NCBI GenBank assembly: GCA_002721815.1
Contig: PBLQ01000056.1
Coordinates: 1 to 63,805 of the forward strand
Origin: Myxococcales bacterium
GTDB taxonomy: Bacteria; Myxococcota; UBA727; GCA-2721815
Length of the DNA stretch: 63,805 nt
Direction: 5' to 3'
Positions 38,814 through 62,908 of the stretch are shown piece after piece (the first letter of the stretch is position 1; each line of letters opens with the position of its first letter). The notes beneath the pieces were generated by a model that did no database searches, was not told the DNA's origin, and saw only the letters and a list, made by a program, of their open reading frames with translations. A program made the position numbers and the translations under genes.

Positions 38814-40736
38814 TTATTCCCAGTCTCCGTCGCGCCGGTAATCTTCTGCCCGGCTCGCAGGAATCATCGCCGCCACATCGTACGTCACACACCCATTTTC
38901 GAGGATCATGCCACCCAACAGCGCATAGGCGATTAAATCGGCCCCCATTCCCTCTGCTGTCTCATCCAAAATGCTGGACAAAGTTGGAGGGGTGCTGTCA
39001 GATGTGGGCCTAAAACAACTGTTAAACTCTTTTTCTAATACAATGGTATCACCGCAAAGAGGGTCGGCGCCGTAGGTGTTGGTGGATTCATCGGTCAACA
39101 CCGCCGCCCCACAACAATGATCACGCAGGCAAAGGGCGTCCATCACGCGATTTTCAGCATGGGCCGCTGTACATTCCAATGAGGTGTTGGACACTTGCTC
39201 GATCGATTCTTTAATTTCGGTATCCGTGCAAGAACTATAAACCACAGTGTCAAAGTAAGGGTCACGGCACTCTTGGCATTCTTCACCCGCGACGAACCCA
39301 CAGACCGGTGGCTTGGGCAACATACCACCAGCATGTCCCTCACACCGTTGGTACACGACTTGTGACCCCTCACCTTCGTAACATACCAAGCAGGTTTCTT
39401 CGCCCGCCTGTCCATACACATAGTTCGACGCATATTCGCATTGGAGCGTTGGCTGAGGAAGCATACAAACCACTTCGCTGATCTCGTCCATGCCTTCACC
39501 GATGGCGCAAAAACGACAAAAAGTCTCATTTGCATCATCGTCGGTCTGCGTTCCCGTCATACAATGCTGTTCACAGCCATCCCCTTCACACGTCTTCGGC
39601 TCACACTCTTGCACCACCAAATCATTCACCTCATTAATACAGAACACACATGTTTCGTTGCGCGTTTCAATACGCTCGCACCGGTTAATGCGCCGGTCTA
39701 CAGGTTCACAGTCCTCTGAGATCACGTCGCCGCTCTCATCCAAGCACTGGATGCAACGGGTATTTTCATCGGGATAAACTTCTTCGCAATTTTGCTCTGA
39801 TGCACCGCTTGAGGGTGCGACTTCCTCGTTGTCGGTGCCATCATCAGTCCCGTCACCAGAACCATCGGCAGCACCGTCAGAGGAACCGTCAGAAGCGCCG
39901 TCATCGCTGCCACCTTGGGTGCCAGATCCACCCACGTTGCCTTGGTTTGGATCTCCATCGCTTGCCAACTCAGTATCATTCTCGAAGGCGGACAATCTTT
40001 CTTTCTCATTCTCCACATCACCGCCAATGCAGTGATGCCGAATCAACTTATCTTCGGCATTGTAAAAATCGCTGCAGCGCCAATCACTGCCGGCGTAGAC
40101 CGTTGCCGTCACAGGATCGATACTTTTCAATTTGCACTTCGAAAAGACCATGGTCCCATTGTCATCCGTGCATTGTTCGCAAAGATATGGCCCTTTATCG
40201 ATGTCTAGTACGCAAGTGGCATCTGTGGGTCGGCAGGTTTCTGAGATTTGATTGCCATCATTGTCCGTACAGATTTCACAATCCACCATGGCCCCTTCAC
40301 GGAATTGCTGTTGGGTTTCACAATCCCCTGTTTCTTCGGGGGCCAACATACAATCGTCGTAAACGGTTTCTCCCGATTGGGTTTGGCAAATTTGACAAGG
40401 ATCGCCATTGGGGTTTTCACTTTCGATGCAAACCACGCGAGTGAGCTGCCCATCGATACGGTGTTGGTATTCCTGATCAAAACAAACGGCCTGAACATTG
40501 GACCCGTCGATTTCGTTGATGCTCAGAGAATCGCATTCCATGGAGCCATGAAAACAACCACCCGTCACACCGAACTGACAGTCGATCCCGCCCATTTGAC
40601 CAAAGTCGCCACCTGCGCGCTCTGCCATGGCCATGTCACCTGCCGAGATGGCCCCTTCAGCACAACCGAAAAACAATGGCATGGCCAACAATGTGCCCAC
40701 CCACTTTAAAATCTGATTTTTCGTTTCAATCATCAT
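38814..40736 (-). CDS. Cys-rich lipoprotein with eight C-x2-C-x11-13-C repeats
   Basis: A 640-aa protein; GGAGG upstream. Lipobox L-F-F-G-C at 21-25. Close to fifty Cys. Eight copies of C-x2-C-x(11-13)-C occur at Cys114, 153, 186, 328, 363, 407, 449 and 487 (first Cys of each), usually with a Gly in the middle and V/I-x-x-x-C at the end. A Ser-Asp-Gly spacer (about 270-303) splits repeats three and four. A C-terminal region (505-640) has further Cys and ends in acidic residues. I do not recognise the family. The C-x2-C knuckles could be disulfides or metal sites. It diverges from the A gene at 40999. Confidence 0.8.
   Translation of the reverse strand: MMIETKNQILKWVGTLLAMPLFFGCAEGAISAGDMAMAERAGGDFGQMGGIDCQFGVTGGCFHGSMECDSLSINEIDGSNVQAVCFDQEYQHRIDGQLTRVVCIESENPNGDPCQICQTQSGETVYDDCMLAPEETGDCETQQQFREGAMVDCEICTDNDGNQISETCRPTDATCVLDIDKGPYLCEQCTDDNGTMVFSKCKLKSIDPVTATVYAGSDWRCSDFYNAEDKLIRHHCIGGDVENEKERLSAFENDTELASDGDPNQGNVGGSGTQGGSDDGASDGSSDGAADGSGDGTDDGTDNEEVAPSSGASEQNCEEVYPDENTRCIQCLDESGDVISEDCEPVDRRINRCERIETRNETCVFCINEVNDLVVQECEPKTCEGDGCEQHCMTGTQTDDDANETFCRFCAIGEGMDEISEVVCMLPQPTLQCEYASNYVYGQAGEETCLVCYEGEGSQVVYQRCEGHAGGMLPKPPVCGFVAGEECQECRDPYFDTVVYSSCTDTEIKESIEQVSNTSLECTAAHAENRVMDALCLRDHCCGAAVLTDESTNTYGADPLCGDTIVLEKEFNSCFRPTSDSTPPTLSSILDETAEGMGADLIAYALLGGMILENGCVTYDVAAMIPASRAEDYRRDGDWE
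39828..39929 (-). repeat. Ser-Asp-Gly low-complexity spacer repeat
   Basis: Short in-frame repeats encode G-G-S-D-D-G-A-S-D-G-S-S-D-G... within the Cys-repeat lipoprotein. The composition is like the spacers in the genes at 40999 and 44623. Confidence 0.7.
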
Positions 40737-40998: not shown

Positions 40999-42681
40999 AT
41001 GAAAAAATCAACGCTACTTCTCATCACATCCTGCCTGATGGCAGCCAACGCCCAAGCGGACATTGGCGACCCCTGCGACCCAGCCACTTTCACGGAAATT
41101 TGCGATGGCGATGAAGTCATTTATTGCGATGACGATACCGAAGCTGCGTTGAATTGCGGCGCAACCTATGGAGAAGGCGCGACATGTGCATCACTGGACG
41201 AAGGCGTGCTTTGTGCCGCACCAACCGGCGTTCAATGCATCACCGTGATCGACGAAACCACTTACGCGCTCCCCTGCATTGACGATGGTACTGGTTGCGA
41301 TGCTGCGAGCGATTACCAATGCGTTGCGAACGGCCCGCAATGCACCCCTCCTGCCGAGGATGAAGAATTTGAACACGTGTGCCAGGACAACAAAGCGGTA
41401 TGGGCCTGTCCTTTCGAAGATTCCGCCATTTACGACGACTGCACCGTGGTGGGTGGGACATGCAGCGAAGGCGATTTCTGCATCGATGTGCAACTGGGCG
41501 GCAAATGCAACGCTGACAGCCCAAGTACTGAAGATGGCGATTGGTGGAGCTGTGCAGCAGATCTCACCTGCTATGGGGCCGACGATGGTGTGGGCAACTG
41601 CATCCCGGACCGAGATAACTGCGGCGATATCACCTGGGAAGGCTCCTGTGCGGGTGATGTGGCTGTGTACTGTAGCGATGAAAACAGCGACCCCAACGCA
41701 GATCTTCGCACCTTCGACTGCGGTAACATTACGGGCGATGGTGAAAACGTCGGCAACTGCCACGTCTACGAAGACATCGGAGCTTGGTGCGCGGTTAAAG
41801 AAGGCGATCGCTGTCGCTTTGTCAATTCCAGCAATAACAGCACCATTACATTCCCTTGTTACGATGTAGACAATCCTTCCGCTGAGCTTTTCTGCAACAT
41901 GGATACCGGACTGTGTGAAACCACCAGCACCACCTGCCCCGAAGGCCAGGAGTACACCTGCGATGGCGATCGTCTCTTGCGTTGTTCCAGCACTGGAATC
42001 GTTGCGGTGGATTGTACCTCAGACACTTACCAAGGAACGGGCTGTAGCAACGCAGCATGCGTGGGGCTGATCGAAGGCGCATTCTGTAATGACACCACTT
42101 TCTTGTGCGCCGAGGGTTTGGCCTGTGTGGGCTTATCAGACACCCAAGCGGGGGTATGCACGGCTGGGGTGGACATGGATGGCGGCATCGTACCGGTCAT
42201 CACCAGTGCAGACGGTGGCATGCCGGACACAATCGATGCAGACGGTGGCGTTTCCAACCCCGGCGCTGGTGTGGGCTTTGGCGATGATGATGACGATGAT
42301 GATCGTGAAGAACCAGAACCAACCCCAGATGCGGGCGTGGTCGATGATGGAATCGGTCATGGTGGGATCGATGGTGAAACGGACGGCGCCACAGACGGTG
42401 CCACAGATGGCACTGCAGATGGCACCACAGATGGCACCACAGATGGCACCACAGATGGCACCACAGATGGCACCGCAGATGGCACCACAGATGGCACCAC
42501 AGATGGCACCACAGATGGCACTGATGGAGAACAGAGCCCTGAGCCCCGTCAAGACGCACCGGCCACAGCACCCGCTACCAGTGGTTGCGGTTGTGAAGCT
42601 GCAACCCCACACTCAAGCTCCAACCCAATGATGTTGGGCTTCTTGTTGCTGCCACTGTTGGCCCGGCGCCGACGCTATTAG
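40999..42681 (+). CDS. Exported Cys-rich protein A, two modules, MYXO-CTERM-like tail
   Basis: A 560-aa protein. Sec signal ends N-A-Q-A. Two related Cys-rich modules (about 20-190 and 205-395) share E-x-C-x-G-D-x-x-x-Y-C, G-x-x-C and Cys-Val/Ala spacing. Then an acidic segment, a T-D-G-T repeat spacer (about 455-512) and a C-terminal signal: S-G-C-G-C, a hydrophobic helix (M-M-L-G-F-L-L-L-P-L-L) and A-R-R-R-R-Y. That tail resembles myxosortase-type surface anchoring. The second module aligns with the whole of the protein at 43598. Function unknown; an exported, surface-attached protein is inferred. Confidence 0.85.
   Translation: MKKSTLLLITSCLMAANAQADIGDPCDPATFTEICDGDEVIYCDDDTEAALNCGATYGEGATCASLDEGVLCAAPTGVQCITVIDETTYALPCIDDGTGCDAASDYQCVANGPQCTPPAEDEEFEHVCQDNKAVWACPFEDSAIYDDCTVVGGTCSEGDFCIDVQLGGKCNADSPSTEDGDWWSCAADLTCYGADDGVGNCIPDRDNCGDITWEGSCAGDVAVYCSDENSDPNADLRTFDCGNITGDGENVGNCHVYEDIGAWCAVKEGDRCRFVNSSNNSTITFPCYDVDNPSAELFCNMDTGLCETTSTTCPEGQEYTCDGDRLLRCSSTGIVAVDCTSDTYQGTGCSNAACVGLIEGAFCNDTTFLCAEGLACVGLSDTQAGVCTAGVDMDGGIVPVITSADGGMPDTIDADGGVSNPGAGVGFGDDDDDDDREEPEPTPDAGVVDDGIGHGGIDGETDGATDGATDGTADGTTDGTTDGTTDGTTDGTADGTTDGTTDGTTDGTDGEQSPEPRQDAPATAPATSGCGCEAATPHSSSNPMMLGFLLLPLLARRRRY
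42379..42522 (+). repeat. 12-bp ACAGATGGCACC tandem repeat (Thr-Asp-Gly-Thr)
   Basis: About twelve near-identical 12-bp units with a few C/G or T changes. They keep the frame of protein A, so copy-number change would only alter spacer length. Confidence 0.9.
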
Positions 42682-42806: not shown

Positions 42807-43442
42807 ATGAAACGGGTTTGGTTACTGGTTTTGGGGACCGCCTTACTTTGCGCCACCATTGGATACGCCAAATCCAAACGTCACAAGCGCGCAAAAACCC
42901 AACAGACCCCACAAGCACAAGTCGAAGAACAAAAGCCAATGACCCTTTCGGCCAGATGCATGGCTTATTGTGAGTTCACCCAAAATTGTCTGAGTGATAT
43001 TTGCACCGAGAACCCAACGGTGTCGGTGGAAACCTGTTTCAATCAATGTAAGGCCGCCAACGATCTCACCGACGAGGAGCTGCATCAAACGCGGCAAGCG
43101 GGTTGCCTCAGAACAAATGCTGTTTATTGCAGCTCGGGGCTGCTCGATAACAAACGTTGTAACTGCGAAGCTCCTAGGGCCCAATGCGCCCCTAACCAAC
43201 AATGCAATATCCCACTCAATGGCGACCGTTGGGCCTGCAGTGACAAACCCAACACACCCTCCAATCATCTTCCCTGTGATTTTTTTAATCCCTGCCAAAA
43301 GGGGAGCGTTTGTGTGGGCCAGTTCCCTGGCGCATCCAGTGGGGTTTGCGTGCTGACCTGCACCCCCCCTAAAAAACCTGGTGACATCCGTCAAAAACAG
43401 CCCGTAAACACGGAAGGCGTGGCTCAAGCATCCGATAAATAA
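42807..43442 (+). CDS. Exported Cys-rich protein B
   Basis: A 211-aa protein. Signal peptide (about 1-21), a basic segment, then a Cys-rich domain starting C-x3-C-x5-C-x4-C-x10-C-x3-C. This exact spacing recurs in the protein at 44623, and later Cys (C-x5-C-x5-C-x11-C-x3-C near the end) also match. No lipobox; ends in a polar tail. Family not recognised. It follows A and precedes A'. Confidence 0.82.
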   Translation: MKRVWLLVLGTALLCATIGYAKSKRHKRAKTQQTPQAQVEEQKPMTLSARCMAYCEFTQNCLSDICTENPTVSVETCFNQCKAANDLTDEELHQTRQAGCLRTNAVYCSSGLLDNKRCNCEAPRAQCAPNQQCNIPLNGDRWACSDKPNTPSNHLPCDFFNPCQKGSVCVGQFPGASSGVCVLTCTPPKKPGDIRQKQPVNTEGVAQASDK

Positions 43443-43597
43443 GAGCAATTTTTTAGTTCACCCCCTGCCCCTAATTCCGTATTGCGGGGCGTGGGTCTGT
43501 GTGCCACAACTCGGTTTCGATCAGGATCCAAACGGGTTTTACCCGGCCTGGCCGCAGTTGCTTTTCAACCCTTCTTCTTCTTTCGAGGTTTAGATTT

Positions 43598-44494
43598 ATG
43601 AAAAAATTAGCGATACTTTCTGTTCTTTTCGTTTCTTTTGTGGGCACCAATGCCTTGGCTGAAGAAACCTGTGGCGGCGCCGACTACGACAACGATGGCA
43701 CCAATGACCAAGTTACTTACGAAGGCCAATGTGATGGAACCGACGCCATCTACTGCACCGCGCCTGACGAAGAAGCAACGGCTGACAGTGCGCTCGAAAG
43801 AATCGCCTGTGCTGACCTTCTTGAAGACGGCAGCGTCGTTGGCACTTGCGCCATGCTGGATAACTGGGGCTCCTGGTGTGCTTTTCCGCAAGGCACCGGT
43901 TGTGCTTTCAGTGGTGGCGAAAGTAACATTTACTTCGCATGTGGCGACGCAAACGGTGCTGCATCCAACCTTTATTGTTCCTTGTCTACTGGCAAATGCG
44001 AAAGTGGAACTGGCACCTGTACACCCAGCGAAAACTACCAGCCCACCTGTGAGGGTAACGTGATGATGGCCAGCTGTCTGCCTTGGGGCCAAGCCATGGG
44101 CTACGACTGCACCAGCGCTGAAATCGGTGGTTCCAGCTGTACCTCCGGCGCTTGCGTGGGCATTCCTGCAGGCAACCCCTGTGACAACACCTATTTCAAA
44201 TGCGCTGACGGCCTGTTCTGTAACGGTGCAAGCTCCACGGCCATGGGCACCTGTGGCACCGAGCAGACCGGCACGGGTACTGGCACTGGCACTGGCACTG
44301 GCACTGGCACTGGCACCGGCACCGGCACCGGCACCGAAACTGGCGATACCAACGATGGTACCACCCGGACCGACGATGCAGAAGAACCAGCAGCCACCAC
44401 CGGATTTGGCTGTCAGGCCACAGGCGCAGGGAACGTCTCCTTGGCTGCCCTGTTCGCTTTCGGCTTGTTGGCCATCCGTCGCCGCCGCAAGTAA
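43598..44494 (+). CDS. Exported Cys-rich protein A', one module, MYXO-CTERM-like tail
   Basis: ATG at 43598 with GAGG upstream; a longer in-frame reading to 43499 has no signal-like start. The 298-aa product has a signal ending A-L-A, a single Cys-rich module matching the second module of protein A (E-G-x-C-x-G...C-x-x-x-x-x-x-G-x-W-C-A...A-C-V-G-I), a Gly-Thr repeat spacer, and a tail F-G-C-Q-A-T-G, hydrophobic helix and R-R-R-R-K. Likely surface-anchored. Confidence 0.85.
   Translation: MKKLAILSVLFVSFVGTNALAEETCGGADYDNDGTNDQVTYEGQCDGTDAIYCTAPDEEATADSALERIACADLLEDGSVVGTCAMLDNWGSWCAFPQGTGCAFSGGESNIYFACGDANGAASNLYCSLSTGKCESGTGTCTPSENYQPTCEGNVMMASCLPWGQAMGYDCTSAEIGGSSCTSGACVGIPAGNPCDNTYFKCADGLFCNGASSTAMGTCGTEQTGTGTGTGTGTGTGTGTGTGTGTETGDTNDGTTRTDDAEEPAATTGFGCQATGAGNVSLAALFAFGLLAIRRRRK
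44267..44340 (+). repeat. 6-bp GGCACT/GGCACC tandem repeat (Gly-Thr)
   Basis: About ten near-identical 6-bp units form the spacer of protein A'. Each unit is two codons, so slippage keeps the frame. Confidence 0.9.
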
Positions 44495-45405: not shown

Positions 45406-46086
45406 ATGCCCCAAGAAGTCAAACTCCCAGACCTCAAAAATGAAGCGCTCGATCAGATTCCCCGGGCTTTTGCCCAAGGGGGTTTGAGTGCCTCTTTCGC
45501 AGCGGCTGGAGCGGGCGTGGCACGTACCCTGGCCACTCAGCGGAACATGAAAATCCACTGGCTCGCCGCTCTGATGGTCACCTTGGTGGCCACCGCACTC
45601 CCCTTCGATCTGTCCATTCGCGTGGCCTTAATTTTCTCCATCGCCCTGGTCTTGTTTGCCGAAATCTTAAATACGGCCTTAGAAGCATTCGTGGACTTAC
45701 ACATCAAAGACTATCATCGCCTGGCAATGCTGGCCAAAGATGCCGCGGCCGCGGGCGTATTGGTGTTGGCCTTAGGTACGGTGATCGTTTTCACAGAAAT
45801 GGTTTACCTGCAATGGCAGGTGGTTTTGGACAATCAACCCGCCGTTTGGACCACCGTGACCTGGGGCTTTCCCTTGGTCTTATCCGAGTGGGTTGGGCTC
45901 TTTTTGGTGAAAAGAAGCCCTTTGGCTTTCGGTAGGTTCGCCTTATCTCACGTGTTTTTGATGTTGTTGATTCCCATTAGTGCGGATCCTATCTTTTCTG
46001 CATTGGGTTTTATTTTGGTGTGGGTGGCTTTTTTGGCGCGACATATTTATCCCCACTCCGACATGGCCGAATTGGGTGAATCATGA
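45406..46086 (+). CDS. DgkA-type diacylglycerol/undecaprenol kinase with extended C-terminus
   Basis: A 226-aa protein. Residues 25-125 carry the DgkA core: A-x-x-G, R-N-x-x-I-H at about 46-51 and the signature F-A-E-I-L-N-T-A-L-E-A-F-V-D with D-A-A-A-A-G-V-L. The family is usually about 120 aa; here roughly 95 more residues add two or three membrane helices. It phosphorylates a lipid alcohol in the inner membrane. The stop overlaps the next start (ATGA), so it is coupled to the deacetylase. Confidence 0.85.
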   Translation: MPQEVKLPDLKNEALDQIPRAFAQGGLSASFAAAGAGVARTLATQRNMKIHWLAALMVTLVATALPFDLSIRVALIFSIALVLFAEILNTALEAFVDLHIKDYHRLAMLAKDAAAAGVLVLALGTVIVFTEMVYLQWQVVLDNQPAVWTTVTWGFPLVLSEWVGLFLVKRSPLAFGRFALSHVFLMLLIPISADPIFSALGFILVWVAFLARHIYPHSDMAELGES

Positions 46087-47084
46087 GCGGAACACATCAA
46101 CAACTGGGCTCGGTATCCATCGACGTAGACAGTACGGTTTGCTACCGACAAATACATGGCTTGCCTTTCCCGGAAGATGAAGCCGATCCCATTTATGAAA
46201 AAGCGTTACCTCGCTTTTTAGACGCCATGGCCAACTTGAACATCAAAGCCACACTTTTCGTCATCGGTCGTGACCTCGAAAATTCGGCCAATCGAAAAAT
46301 AATTGAACAAGCCGCCGCAGAGGGTCACGAAATAGCCAATCACTCATACCTTCACGATTACGCATTGAGTCGACTGCCCCAAGAGGACATGCGCCAGGAC
46401 GTTCGAAAAGCGCACGTGTTGATTCAAGAAGTAACGGGTCAGGCGCCAGTGGGTTTTCGTGCGCCAGGCTACAATCAAAGCGAAGCGCTCTTCGATGTGC
46501 TCGAAGATTTAGGCTATCAGTACGACTCCAGTTTCTTTCCCACGCCGGCTTATTTTGCGGCACGGGCCACCGCCATCGGCATGTACCAAATGCAAAAGAA
46601 AACCAGCCATTCTTTGGTGGGTGAAATGCGAGAATTTTTGGTGCCGCCCGAGCCCTTTTTCCCCATGCGCAACATTCGTTTTAAGCCGGCAAAACTTCAA
46701 GAGCATGCCCGTCGGATTTTAGAAGTGCCCATCAGCGTTGCGGGGCCAGCGAGGCTCCCTTGGCTCGGAACCACCTTGGTACTTGCCCCCGATCGCGTGG
46801 GGCAAATGATGACCCGGTCTGTGCTGCGACGAAAACAACCCGCGATTTTGGAGTTGCACGCCATCGACTTTGCCGACCCACAGGATGGTTTTGAGGATGC
46901 CCTTAAAACCGCACAAAACGATCTTAAAGTCCCCTTGAACGATAAACTGCGTCGCCTGGAAAACACTTTTCAAGAAATGGCGACGCAACGACAATTGGTC
47001 CCCATGAAAAAATTGGTGCAATCTTTGAGTTCCGTGTGCAAAGAAAAGCTCACTTGGCTGGGTGCGACACAACCCGTGTCATAA
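46083..47084 (+). CDS. Polysaccharide deacetylase family protein (NodB fold)
   Basis: A 333-aa protein. NodB motifs: S-I-D-V-D near the N-terminus, N-H-S-Y-L-H-D at about 92-98 (metal His), R-A-P-G-Y at about 126-130 and a late L-E-L-H-A-I-D. No signal peptide, so it is probably cytoplasmic and may act on a lipid-linked or nucleotide sugar. It overlaps the kinase by 4 bases. Confidence 0.88.
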   Translation: MSGTHQQLGSVSIDVDSTVCYRQIHGLPFPEDEADPIYEKALPRFLDAMANLNIKATLFVIGRDLENSANRKIIEQAAAEGHEIANHSYLHDYALSRLPQEDMRQDVRKAHVLIQEVTGQAPVGFRAPGYNQSEALFDVLEDLGYQYDSSFFPTPAYFAARATAIGMYQMQKKTSHSLVGEMREFLVPPEPFFPMRNIRFKPAKLQEHARRILEVPISVAGPARLPWLGTTLVLAPDRVGQMMTRSVLRRKQPAILELHAIDFADPQDGFEDALKTAQNDLKVPLNDKLRRLENTFQEMATQRQLVPMKKLVQSLSSVCKEKLTWLGATQPVS

Positions 47085-62206: not shown

Positions 62207-62908
62207 ATGAAAAAAATCATCTGCGCATTGACTGTGTTGGCGTTTTCCGTGGCTTGCCAGCCGCCCGCCAATAACGAAGTTGCTCAAAAATTGGAAAAGC
62301 GTGTTGCCGAGCTCGAAAAGCAAGTTAAAGAGCTCAAAAAAGCACCCAAAAAACCACAACGCCCTCAGCCCAAGCCACAAACGGCTGCTTACAAGTTGCC
62401 TACCGGTGAAAGCGCTTCACACGGTGCCGGCAGCGTGGACATCACCCTTTTCAGTGATTTCCAATGCCCCTTCTGCGCTCGTGTAGACCCCATGCTCAAG
62501 CAAGCGGTTAACGATCCTGAGCTCAAAGGCAAAGTAAAGTTGGTCTTCAAGCACTTCCCCTTGTCTTTTCACAAAGACGCAAAGCCCGCATCTAAAGCTG
62601 CTATGGCCGCTGGTGAGCAAGGCAAGTTCTGGGAAATGTCTGAAAAATTGCTCGCGAACCAACGCGACCTGAAACCAGACAACTTCAAAAAATGGGCCAA
62701 AGAAATCGGCTTGAACGTTGGTAAATTTGAGAAAGACCTCAAGGCCAACGATGCCAAGTACGAAGCTCAAATCAAAGCCGACATGGAAATGGGCACCAAA
62801 GCAGCCAAAGTGCGCGGCACCCCCTCCATCTTCGTTGGCGGCTGGCAGCTGCAACAACGCAGTGTTGACGGCATCAAAAGCTTGCTGAAAGACAAAAAAC
62901 TTCTCTAA
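62207..62908 (+). CDS. DsbA-like thioredoxin-fold lipoprotein
   Basis: A 233-aa protein; AGGAGAGA upstream. Lipobox F-S-V-A-C at about 13-17. A short coiled coil (about 24-46) and a Lys/Pro linker precede the thioredoxin fold with the redox motif C-P-F-C at about 87-90 and cis-Pro loop R-G-T-P-S-I-F-V-G-G. A DsbA-family oxidase or isomerase tethered to a membrane fits the many disulfide-rich exported proteins here. Confidence 0.92.
   Translation: MKKIICALTVLAFSVACQPPANNEVAQKLEKRVAELEKQVKELKKAPKKPQRPQPKPQTAAYKLPTGESASHGAGSVDITLFSDFQCPFCARVDPMLKQAVNDPELKGKVKLVFKHFPLSFHKDAKPASKAAMAAGEQGKFWEMSEKLLANQRDLKPDNFKKWAKEIGLNVGKFEKDLKANDAKYEAQIKADMEMGTKAAKVRGTPSIFVGGWQLQQRSVDGIKSLLKDKKLL

Follow-up and report, generated by a model that had tools for sequence, protein, structure and literature searches.

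An apparently undescribed four-cysteine module arrayed in tandem in a probable lipoprotein of a Myxococcales bacterium

The locus and its repeated unit

The window, by which is meant the whole stretch of 63,805 nucleotides of Myxococcales DNA analysed here, carries on its reverse strand the gene for a cysteine-rich, probable lipoprotein, whose coordinates had been given correctly in an earlier sequence-only reading. The features of the gene are listed below with their basis in brackets; the cysteines of a unit are numbered C1 to C4, and the slots of the array U0 to U10.

38814-40736, reverse strand: probable lipoprotein gene, Cys-rich, 640 residues, 48 Cys (open reading frame, alignment)
40662-40736, reverse strand: signal peptide with lipobox-like ...LFFGC, Cys25 (lipobox by eye; Cys aligned in 7 of 7 rows)
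40452-40535, reverse strand: half-unit U0, residues 68-95; C1 and C3 kept, Q82 and D95 in place of C2 and C4 (alignment)
40350-40430, reverse strand: unit U1, residues 103-129 (pattern and alignment)
40233-40322, reverse strand: unit U2, residues 139-168 (pattern and alignment)
40134-40214, reverse strand: unit U3, residues 175-201 (pattern and alignment)
40029-40106, reverse strand: half-unit U4, residues 211-236; C2 and C4 kept, A211 and F224 in place of C1 and C3 (alignment)
39789-40019, reverse strand: Ser/Gly/Asp-rich spacer, residues about 240-316, missing from six aligned relatives (alignment)
39708-39788, reverse strand: unit U5, residues 317-343 (pattern and alignment)
39603-39680, reverse strand: unit U6, residues 353-378 (pattern and alignment)
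39465-39563, reverse strand: unit U7, residues 392-424; C1 (C392) aligned 8 columns off, ambiguous (pattern and alignment)
39342-39440, reverse strand: unit U8, residues 433-465 (pattern and alignment)
39228-39302, reverse strand: unit U9, residues 479-503 (pattern and alignment)
39129-39215, reverse strand: half-unit U10, residues 508-536; C2 and C4 kept, I508 and A525 in place of C1 and C3 (alignment)
38817-39071, reverse strand: C-terminal domain, residues 556-640, diverged, with one of the three Cys of CxxCxC..G kept (alignment)

The lipobox of the window protein was read by eye and has an unusual Phe at -3. The column of Cys25 holds Cys in all seven rows of an alignment of the window protein with six relatives, and lipobox-like motifs, again picked by eye, are found in 11 relatives. 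The protein is likely to be a lipoprotein, as had been proposed, and would be anchored by lipid at its N-terminus.

The sequence-only reading described an eightfold C-x2-C-x11-13-C repeat spread over 390 residues. Eight such units are present, starting at residues 114, 153, 186, 328, 363, 407, 449 and 487 and covering residues 114-503; when the sequence downstream of Cys25 was shuffled 20,000 times, the mean was 0.71 and the maximum six. The unit has four Cys, however, and not three, as a leading Cys precedes the CxxC in every case. The stricter pattern in the window protein is C1-x7-15-C2-x2-C3-x11-13-C4, with 7-15 residues separating the leading Cys from the CxxC. Among the 90 units of 12 proteins, C1-x10-C2 (47 of 90) and C3-x11-C4 (57 of 90) are the most frequent spacings. 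No His follows any of the eight CxxC motifs of the window protein, and these are therefore not the CxxCH haem sites of c-type cytochromes.

Beside the lipoprotein gene, on the opposite strand, lie three genes for exported-looking proteins (40999-42681, 42807-43442 and 43499-44494, forward strand). The first two proteins are Cys-rich, the first having a long TDG repeat, whilst the first and third match MYXO-CTERM, for which the window protein has no NCBIfam match. A polysaccharide deacetylase is encoded 5 kb off, at 46083-47084, and nothing is read into it. The promoter scan gave no promoter-like site, and the terminator scan gave 5 terminator-like sites against 2.5 expected.

Relatives, slots and the C-terminal domain

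With the window protein as query, matches were obtained in seven of 58 genomes, whilst a family profile and a three-unit profile matched in 13 and 12, respectively, of 195 genomes of the phylum, the window's own genome being included in each count. Seven full-length relatives were recovered from six other genomes (G008, G010, G003, G032 with two, G002 and G006); the six that were aligned are 24-27% identical to the window protein. A second copy was not found in the window's own genome at E<=0.001 with the protein query, and weaker matches there (E 0.113 and worse) cover the low-complexity spacer. A 19-row tandem alignment of relatives proved mis-stacked and was not used. Two genomes of the same order, G012 and G009, are about 0.3 and 0.5 million bases in size at 87% and 91% completeness, most others being far larger. 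Among ten hand-picked neighbours, two each from G008, G032, G002, G006 and G003, no gene common to the surroundings of the family was seen: Pfam assigned an FHA kinase, two sigma-54 activators, a DNA glycosylase, an aldolase-type protein, a polysaccharide deacetylase and an aldehyde dehydrogenase-like protein, and three were without family.

The seven full-length relatives show 11 slots. The term eightfold holds for the whole units of the window protein, which is better described as elevenfold with three degenerate members: eight of its slots are whole, the ambiguous U7 among them, and three lack one Cys pair. The 3+5 layout noted previously, with a stretch rich in Ser, Asp and Gly between the two groups, is likewise real, although it reflects an insertion between U4 and U5 of the 11-slot array, since the gap there is 80 residues in the window protein, mostly Ser/Gly/Asp-rich, as against 7-23 in the seven full-length relatives. 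The proteins of G001 and G004 carry inserts of 49 and 36 residues at the same joint, of other composition, suggesting that it has accepted inserts more than once.

All four Cys are kept in 82 of the 88 slots of the eight full-length proteins, the window's included. The exceptions in the window protein are U0, lacking C2 and C4, U4 and U10, lacking C1 and C3, and the ambiguous U7; in one of the two G032 proteins (G032b) U1 lacks C1 and C3 and U0 is absent. Furthermore, in G001 and G004 slots U2 and U3, as assigned in one alignment only, are without C1 and C3 whilst C2 and C4 lie at or near their usual distance.

The unit also occurs in other settings. In G033 and G049 units are found near the N-terminus of other probable lipoproteins, one of which has a long enzyme-like part without Pfam match. 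At one locus (L064:1-2160, reverse strand) two units stand close to the N-terminus of a protein that was read for 720 residues, its frame cut by the locus; the C-terminal half of this protein is enzyme-like and gave no Pfam match at E<=1. Proteins of G021 and G036 combine five units with Kazal and antistasin domains. This company gives some encouragement to the idea of an array that inhibits proteases or binds ligands, in which single units would bind targets and the array would give avidity, as in multi-Kazal or antistasin proteins. Such a role is nonetheless unlikely. Besides the Cys, one Gly alone reaches 90% conservation, as judged from 37 hand-picked units of the 90, and the slots are orthologous and near-constant in number in the eight full-length proteins, which would suit a scaffold of fixed length.

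At the C-terminus, residues 556-640 of the window protein align with a domain that in the relatives carries C-x2-C-x-C-x2-G. Two copies of this domain were scanned against Pfam, with no match above cut-off, and its profile found nothing better than E 1.5. The profile matches in 10 of 195 genomes and misses the window's own copy, which is too diverged. A CUB protein in G017 (two copies) and Cys-rich proteins of a different type in G018, G035 and G044 likewise end in this domain. At four loci (L033, L086, L087 and L088) the CxxCxC..G domain ends unlike bodies, with CUB domains or Cys repeats of the CQSDxDCPxG type. That one domain ends other Cys-rich and CUB proteins could mean that function resides mainly there, with the array as a passive linker of no defined stiffness; the tolerance in the window protein of three half-units and of the long gap between U4 and U5 points the same way. 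We regard this as rather improbable, since keeping four Cys in so large a share of the slots is more than a passive linker needs, and it is the C-terminal domain of the window protein that is itself the diverged part.

Paired cysteine losses and the predicted fold

The CxxC pairs had earlier been thought to suit either metal binding or a disulfide ladder. Of these, the disulfides are favoured by the paired losses, the predicted strand register and the parity of the Cys count, and the metal knuckles are disfavoured. Six half-unit events can be counted: four unambiguous half-units in the eight full-length proteins, and two slots common to G001 and G004, whose shared losses are for that reason taken as two events. 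The proteins of G021, G036, G033 and G049 were left out, as were two slots of the full-length set, U7 of the window protein (C392 being 8 columns off) and the absent U0 of G032b; taken at face value, U7 would be a single loss of C1, contrary to the pattern. In each of the six events the lost pair is C1 with C3 (five) or C2 with C4 (one) and no other, so that all fit one of the three possible pairings. The four events in full-length proteins comprise eight losses as four such pairs, for which p is about 7e-9 under independent Cys loss, and, given double losses, p is 0.04 for all four falling in one pairing class; both values are weakened by shared ancestry and by the analyst's choice of columns.

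These losses bear on the proposal that every intact unit forms a four-Cys metal site of zinc-knuckle or rubredoxin-like type, by which the protein would hold about eight ions as a surface metal store or scavenger. Four Cys per unit and the CxxC pairs themselves speak for it, and the unit profile finds in the PDB, at E<=10, three weak matches which are all to CxxC stretches, two in ribosomal protein uS14 (the better at E 0.051) and one in a ubiquitin ligase (E 0.46). The loss of C1 and C3, or of C2 and C4, however, leaves no CxxC, and is better accounted for by one lost disulfide than by a four-ligand site; this evidence comes from the half-units, which hold two Cys each, rather than from whole units. 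Arrays also co-occur with the disulfide-rich Kazal and antistasin domains. We regard a metal site as very unlikely, and disulfides are the preferred reading.

Cysteine parity is in keeping with disulfides. Downstream of the lipobox the Cys are even in number in all 11 relatives counted (58, 58, 56, 58, 58, 60, 58, 28, 30, 76 and 40), although, because the relatives share ancestry, neither parity nor Cys conservation is an independent test. The count leaves out G021, G036 and L064, where frames are cut by the locus, and depends on lipobox Cys picked by eye; in G008 and G010 two Cys are adjacent at the lipobox, and the lipid was assigned to the first, the choice of the second making the counts odd. 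In the window protein the number is odd, 47; C541 is additional there, and two Cys have been lost from the C-terminus. The window's genome has five DsbA-family matches, the two best resembling by eye the FrnE/HCCA-isomerase type, and one VKOR-family match; DsbB was not found in it. Within the window itself, 62207-62908 on the forward strand encodes a probable lipoprotein that is DsbA-like and has a CPFC motif; it might oxidise proteins of this kind.

AlphaFold2 was applied to residues 103-204, three units, with 10 alignment rows (pLDDT 86.1, pTM 0.49). Each unit is predicted as a three-stranded meander (strands 2-5/11-16/22-25, 36-44/47-55/61-68 and 72-79/82-88/94-101), with strand limits that set C1 opposite C3 and C2 opposite C4. 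Register was judged from the strand limits in place of coordinates or S-S distances, hairpin partners being residues of constant sum. For units 2 and 3, strands 1-2 give sums of 91 and 160-161 against 91 and 160 for C1+C3, and strands 2-3 give 115-116 and 182-183 against 117 and 183 for C2+C4; C1+C2 and C3+C4 miss the strand sums by 3-5. In unit 1 the register is less sharp (16-18 against 16, and 36-38 against 39). With 10 rows and this pTM the arrangement between units is unsure, and the model of the full-length protein is poor (pLDDT 52.8). Taken together, the paired losses and the predicted register make two crossed disulfides, C1-C3 and C2-C4, the most likely state of the unit.

Known families and the proposed role of the array

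The unit was earlier said to belong to no known family, and this holds for the libraries searched. Pfam and NCBIfam gave no family for the window protein at E<=1, and PDB sequences no match at E<=10; the family profile found in the PDB fibronectin 1qo6 alone, weakly (E 0.2), and there is no solved homologue. Foldseek with the three-unit model returned nothing at E<=0.001 (best 0.054, microvirin), and VIA-align reached a best Z of 3.1, with no clear fold match. No conclusion is drawn from these absent matches. A literature search found no title on the unit, although such searches cannot find an unnamed unit; the four-Cys module is apparently undescribed.

Several established repeats invite comparison. 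Fibronectin type I (FN1) and VWC modules are, like the window unit, short four-Cys beta modules, and have a C-x-C in the middle; FN1 has disulfides 1-3 and 2-4, the pairing proposed here; the window unit differs in its C-x2-C middle, its length of about 27 residues and its three predicted strands. The FN1 profile of Pfam gave no row for the window protein (E<=1) or ten relatives (E<=10), and that of VWC none for these or four more unit-bearing proteins. The Myxococcus disulfide repeat (TIGR02232/DUF4215) is likewise a disulfide-type Cys repeat, found in secreted proteins of myxobacteria, and its NCBIfam and Pfam profiles gave no row for the window protein or ten relatives. With FN1, VWC and this repeat all unmatched, the unit is filed under no known repeat family. 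Its second hairpin, C-Y-D-x-x-G-N-V, resembles MORN_2/YD-type hairpin repeats, which are without the four-Cys frame; MORN_2 reached E 0.0052 in G036 and 0.087 in G021, both below the curated cut-off.

A closer parallel is one of principle. TraA, the outer membrane exchange receptor of Myxococcus xanthus, is described as having a Cys-rich region, modelled as beta-hairpins, which is likely a presentation stalk and is predicted to be stiffened by disulfides (PMC12045341). As far as that description goes (PMC12045341), TraA shares with the window protein an extended, Cys-rich array of repeats that would present a domain at the surface of a myxobacterial cell. Their polarity differs, in that the variable recognition domain of TraA is N-terminal and its C-terminus bears a MYXO-CTERM tag, whereas in the window protein the probable lipobox anchor is N-terminal and the end domain C-terminal. 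By this analogy the TraA stalk would be the closest described principle, the module being new and the principle familiar.

We consider it probable that the window protein is a TraA-like stalk of 11 four-Cys modules, lipid-anchored and stiffened by disulfides, which presents the C-terminal domain. The module, its slots, the paired losses and the relatives are there to be read in the sequences, and to these the proposal adds a mechanism. The exported protein, probably held by an N-terminal lipid, would continue into the tandem array and then the end domain. Each module would be an antiparallel meander with C1 on strand 1, C2-x2-C3 on strand 2 and C4 on strand 3, with the cross-strand disulfides C1-C3 and C2-C4, rather than a hydrophobic core, stapling it together. 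Formed in vivo, these disulfides would make of the array an extended, rigid, protease-resistant stalk, exposed at the cell surface. In the window protein three unit disulfides would have been lost and a flexible spacer inserted mid-stalk.

It is attractive to consider, if rather speculative, that these proteins represent a bacterial counterpart of animal extracellular modules: an undescribed, freely shuffled four-Cys module (1-3, 2-4), which this phylum joins to Kazal, antistasin and enzyme-like parts and to an end domain that recurs, and from which a TraA-like set of surface receptors with stalks of this module may have been built. The analysis adds a module absent from the libraries searched and gives a disulfide map that can be tested. 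Finally, the recurrence of the C-terminal domain on different Cys-rich bodies within one phylum points to a set of candidate surface proteins for comparison with TraA.
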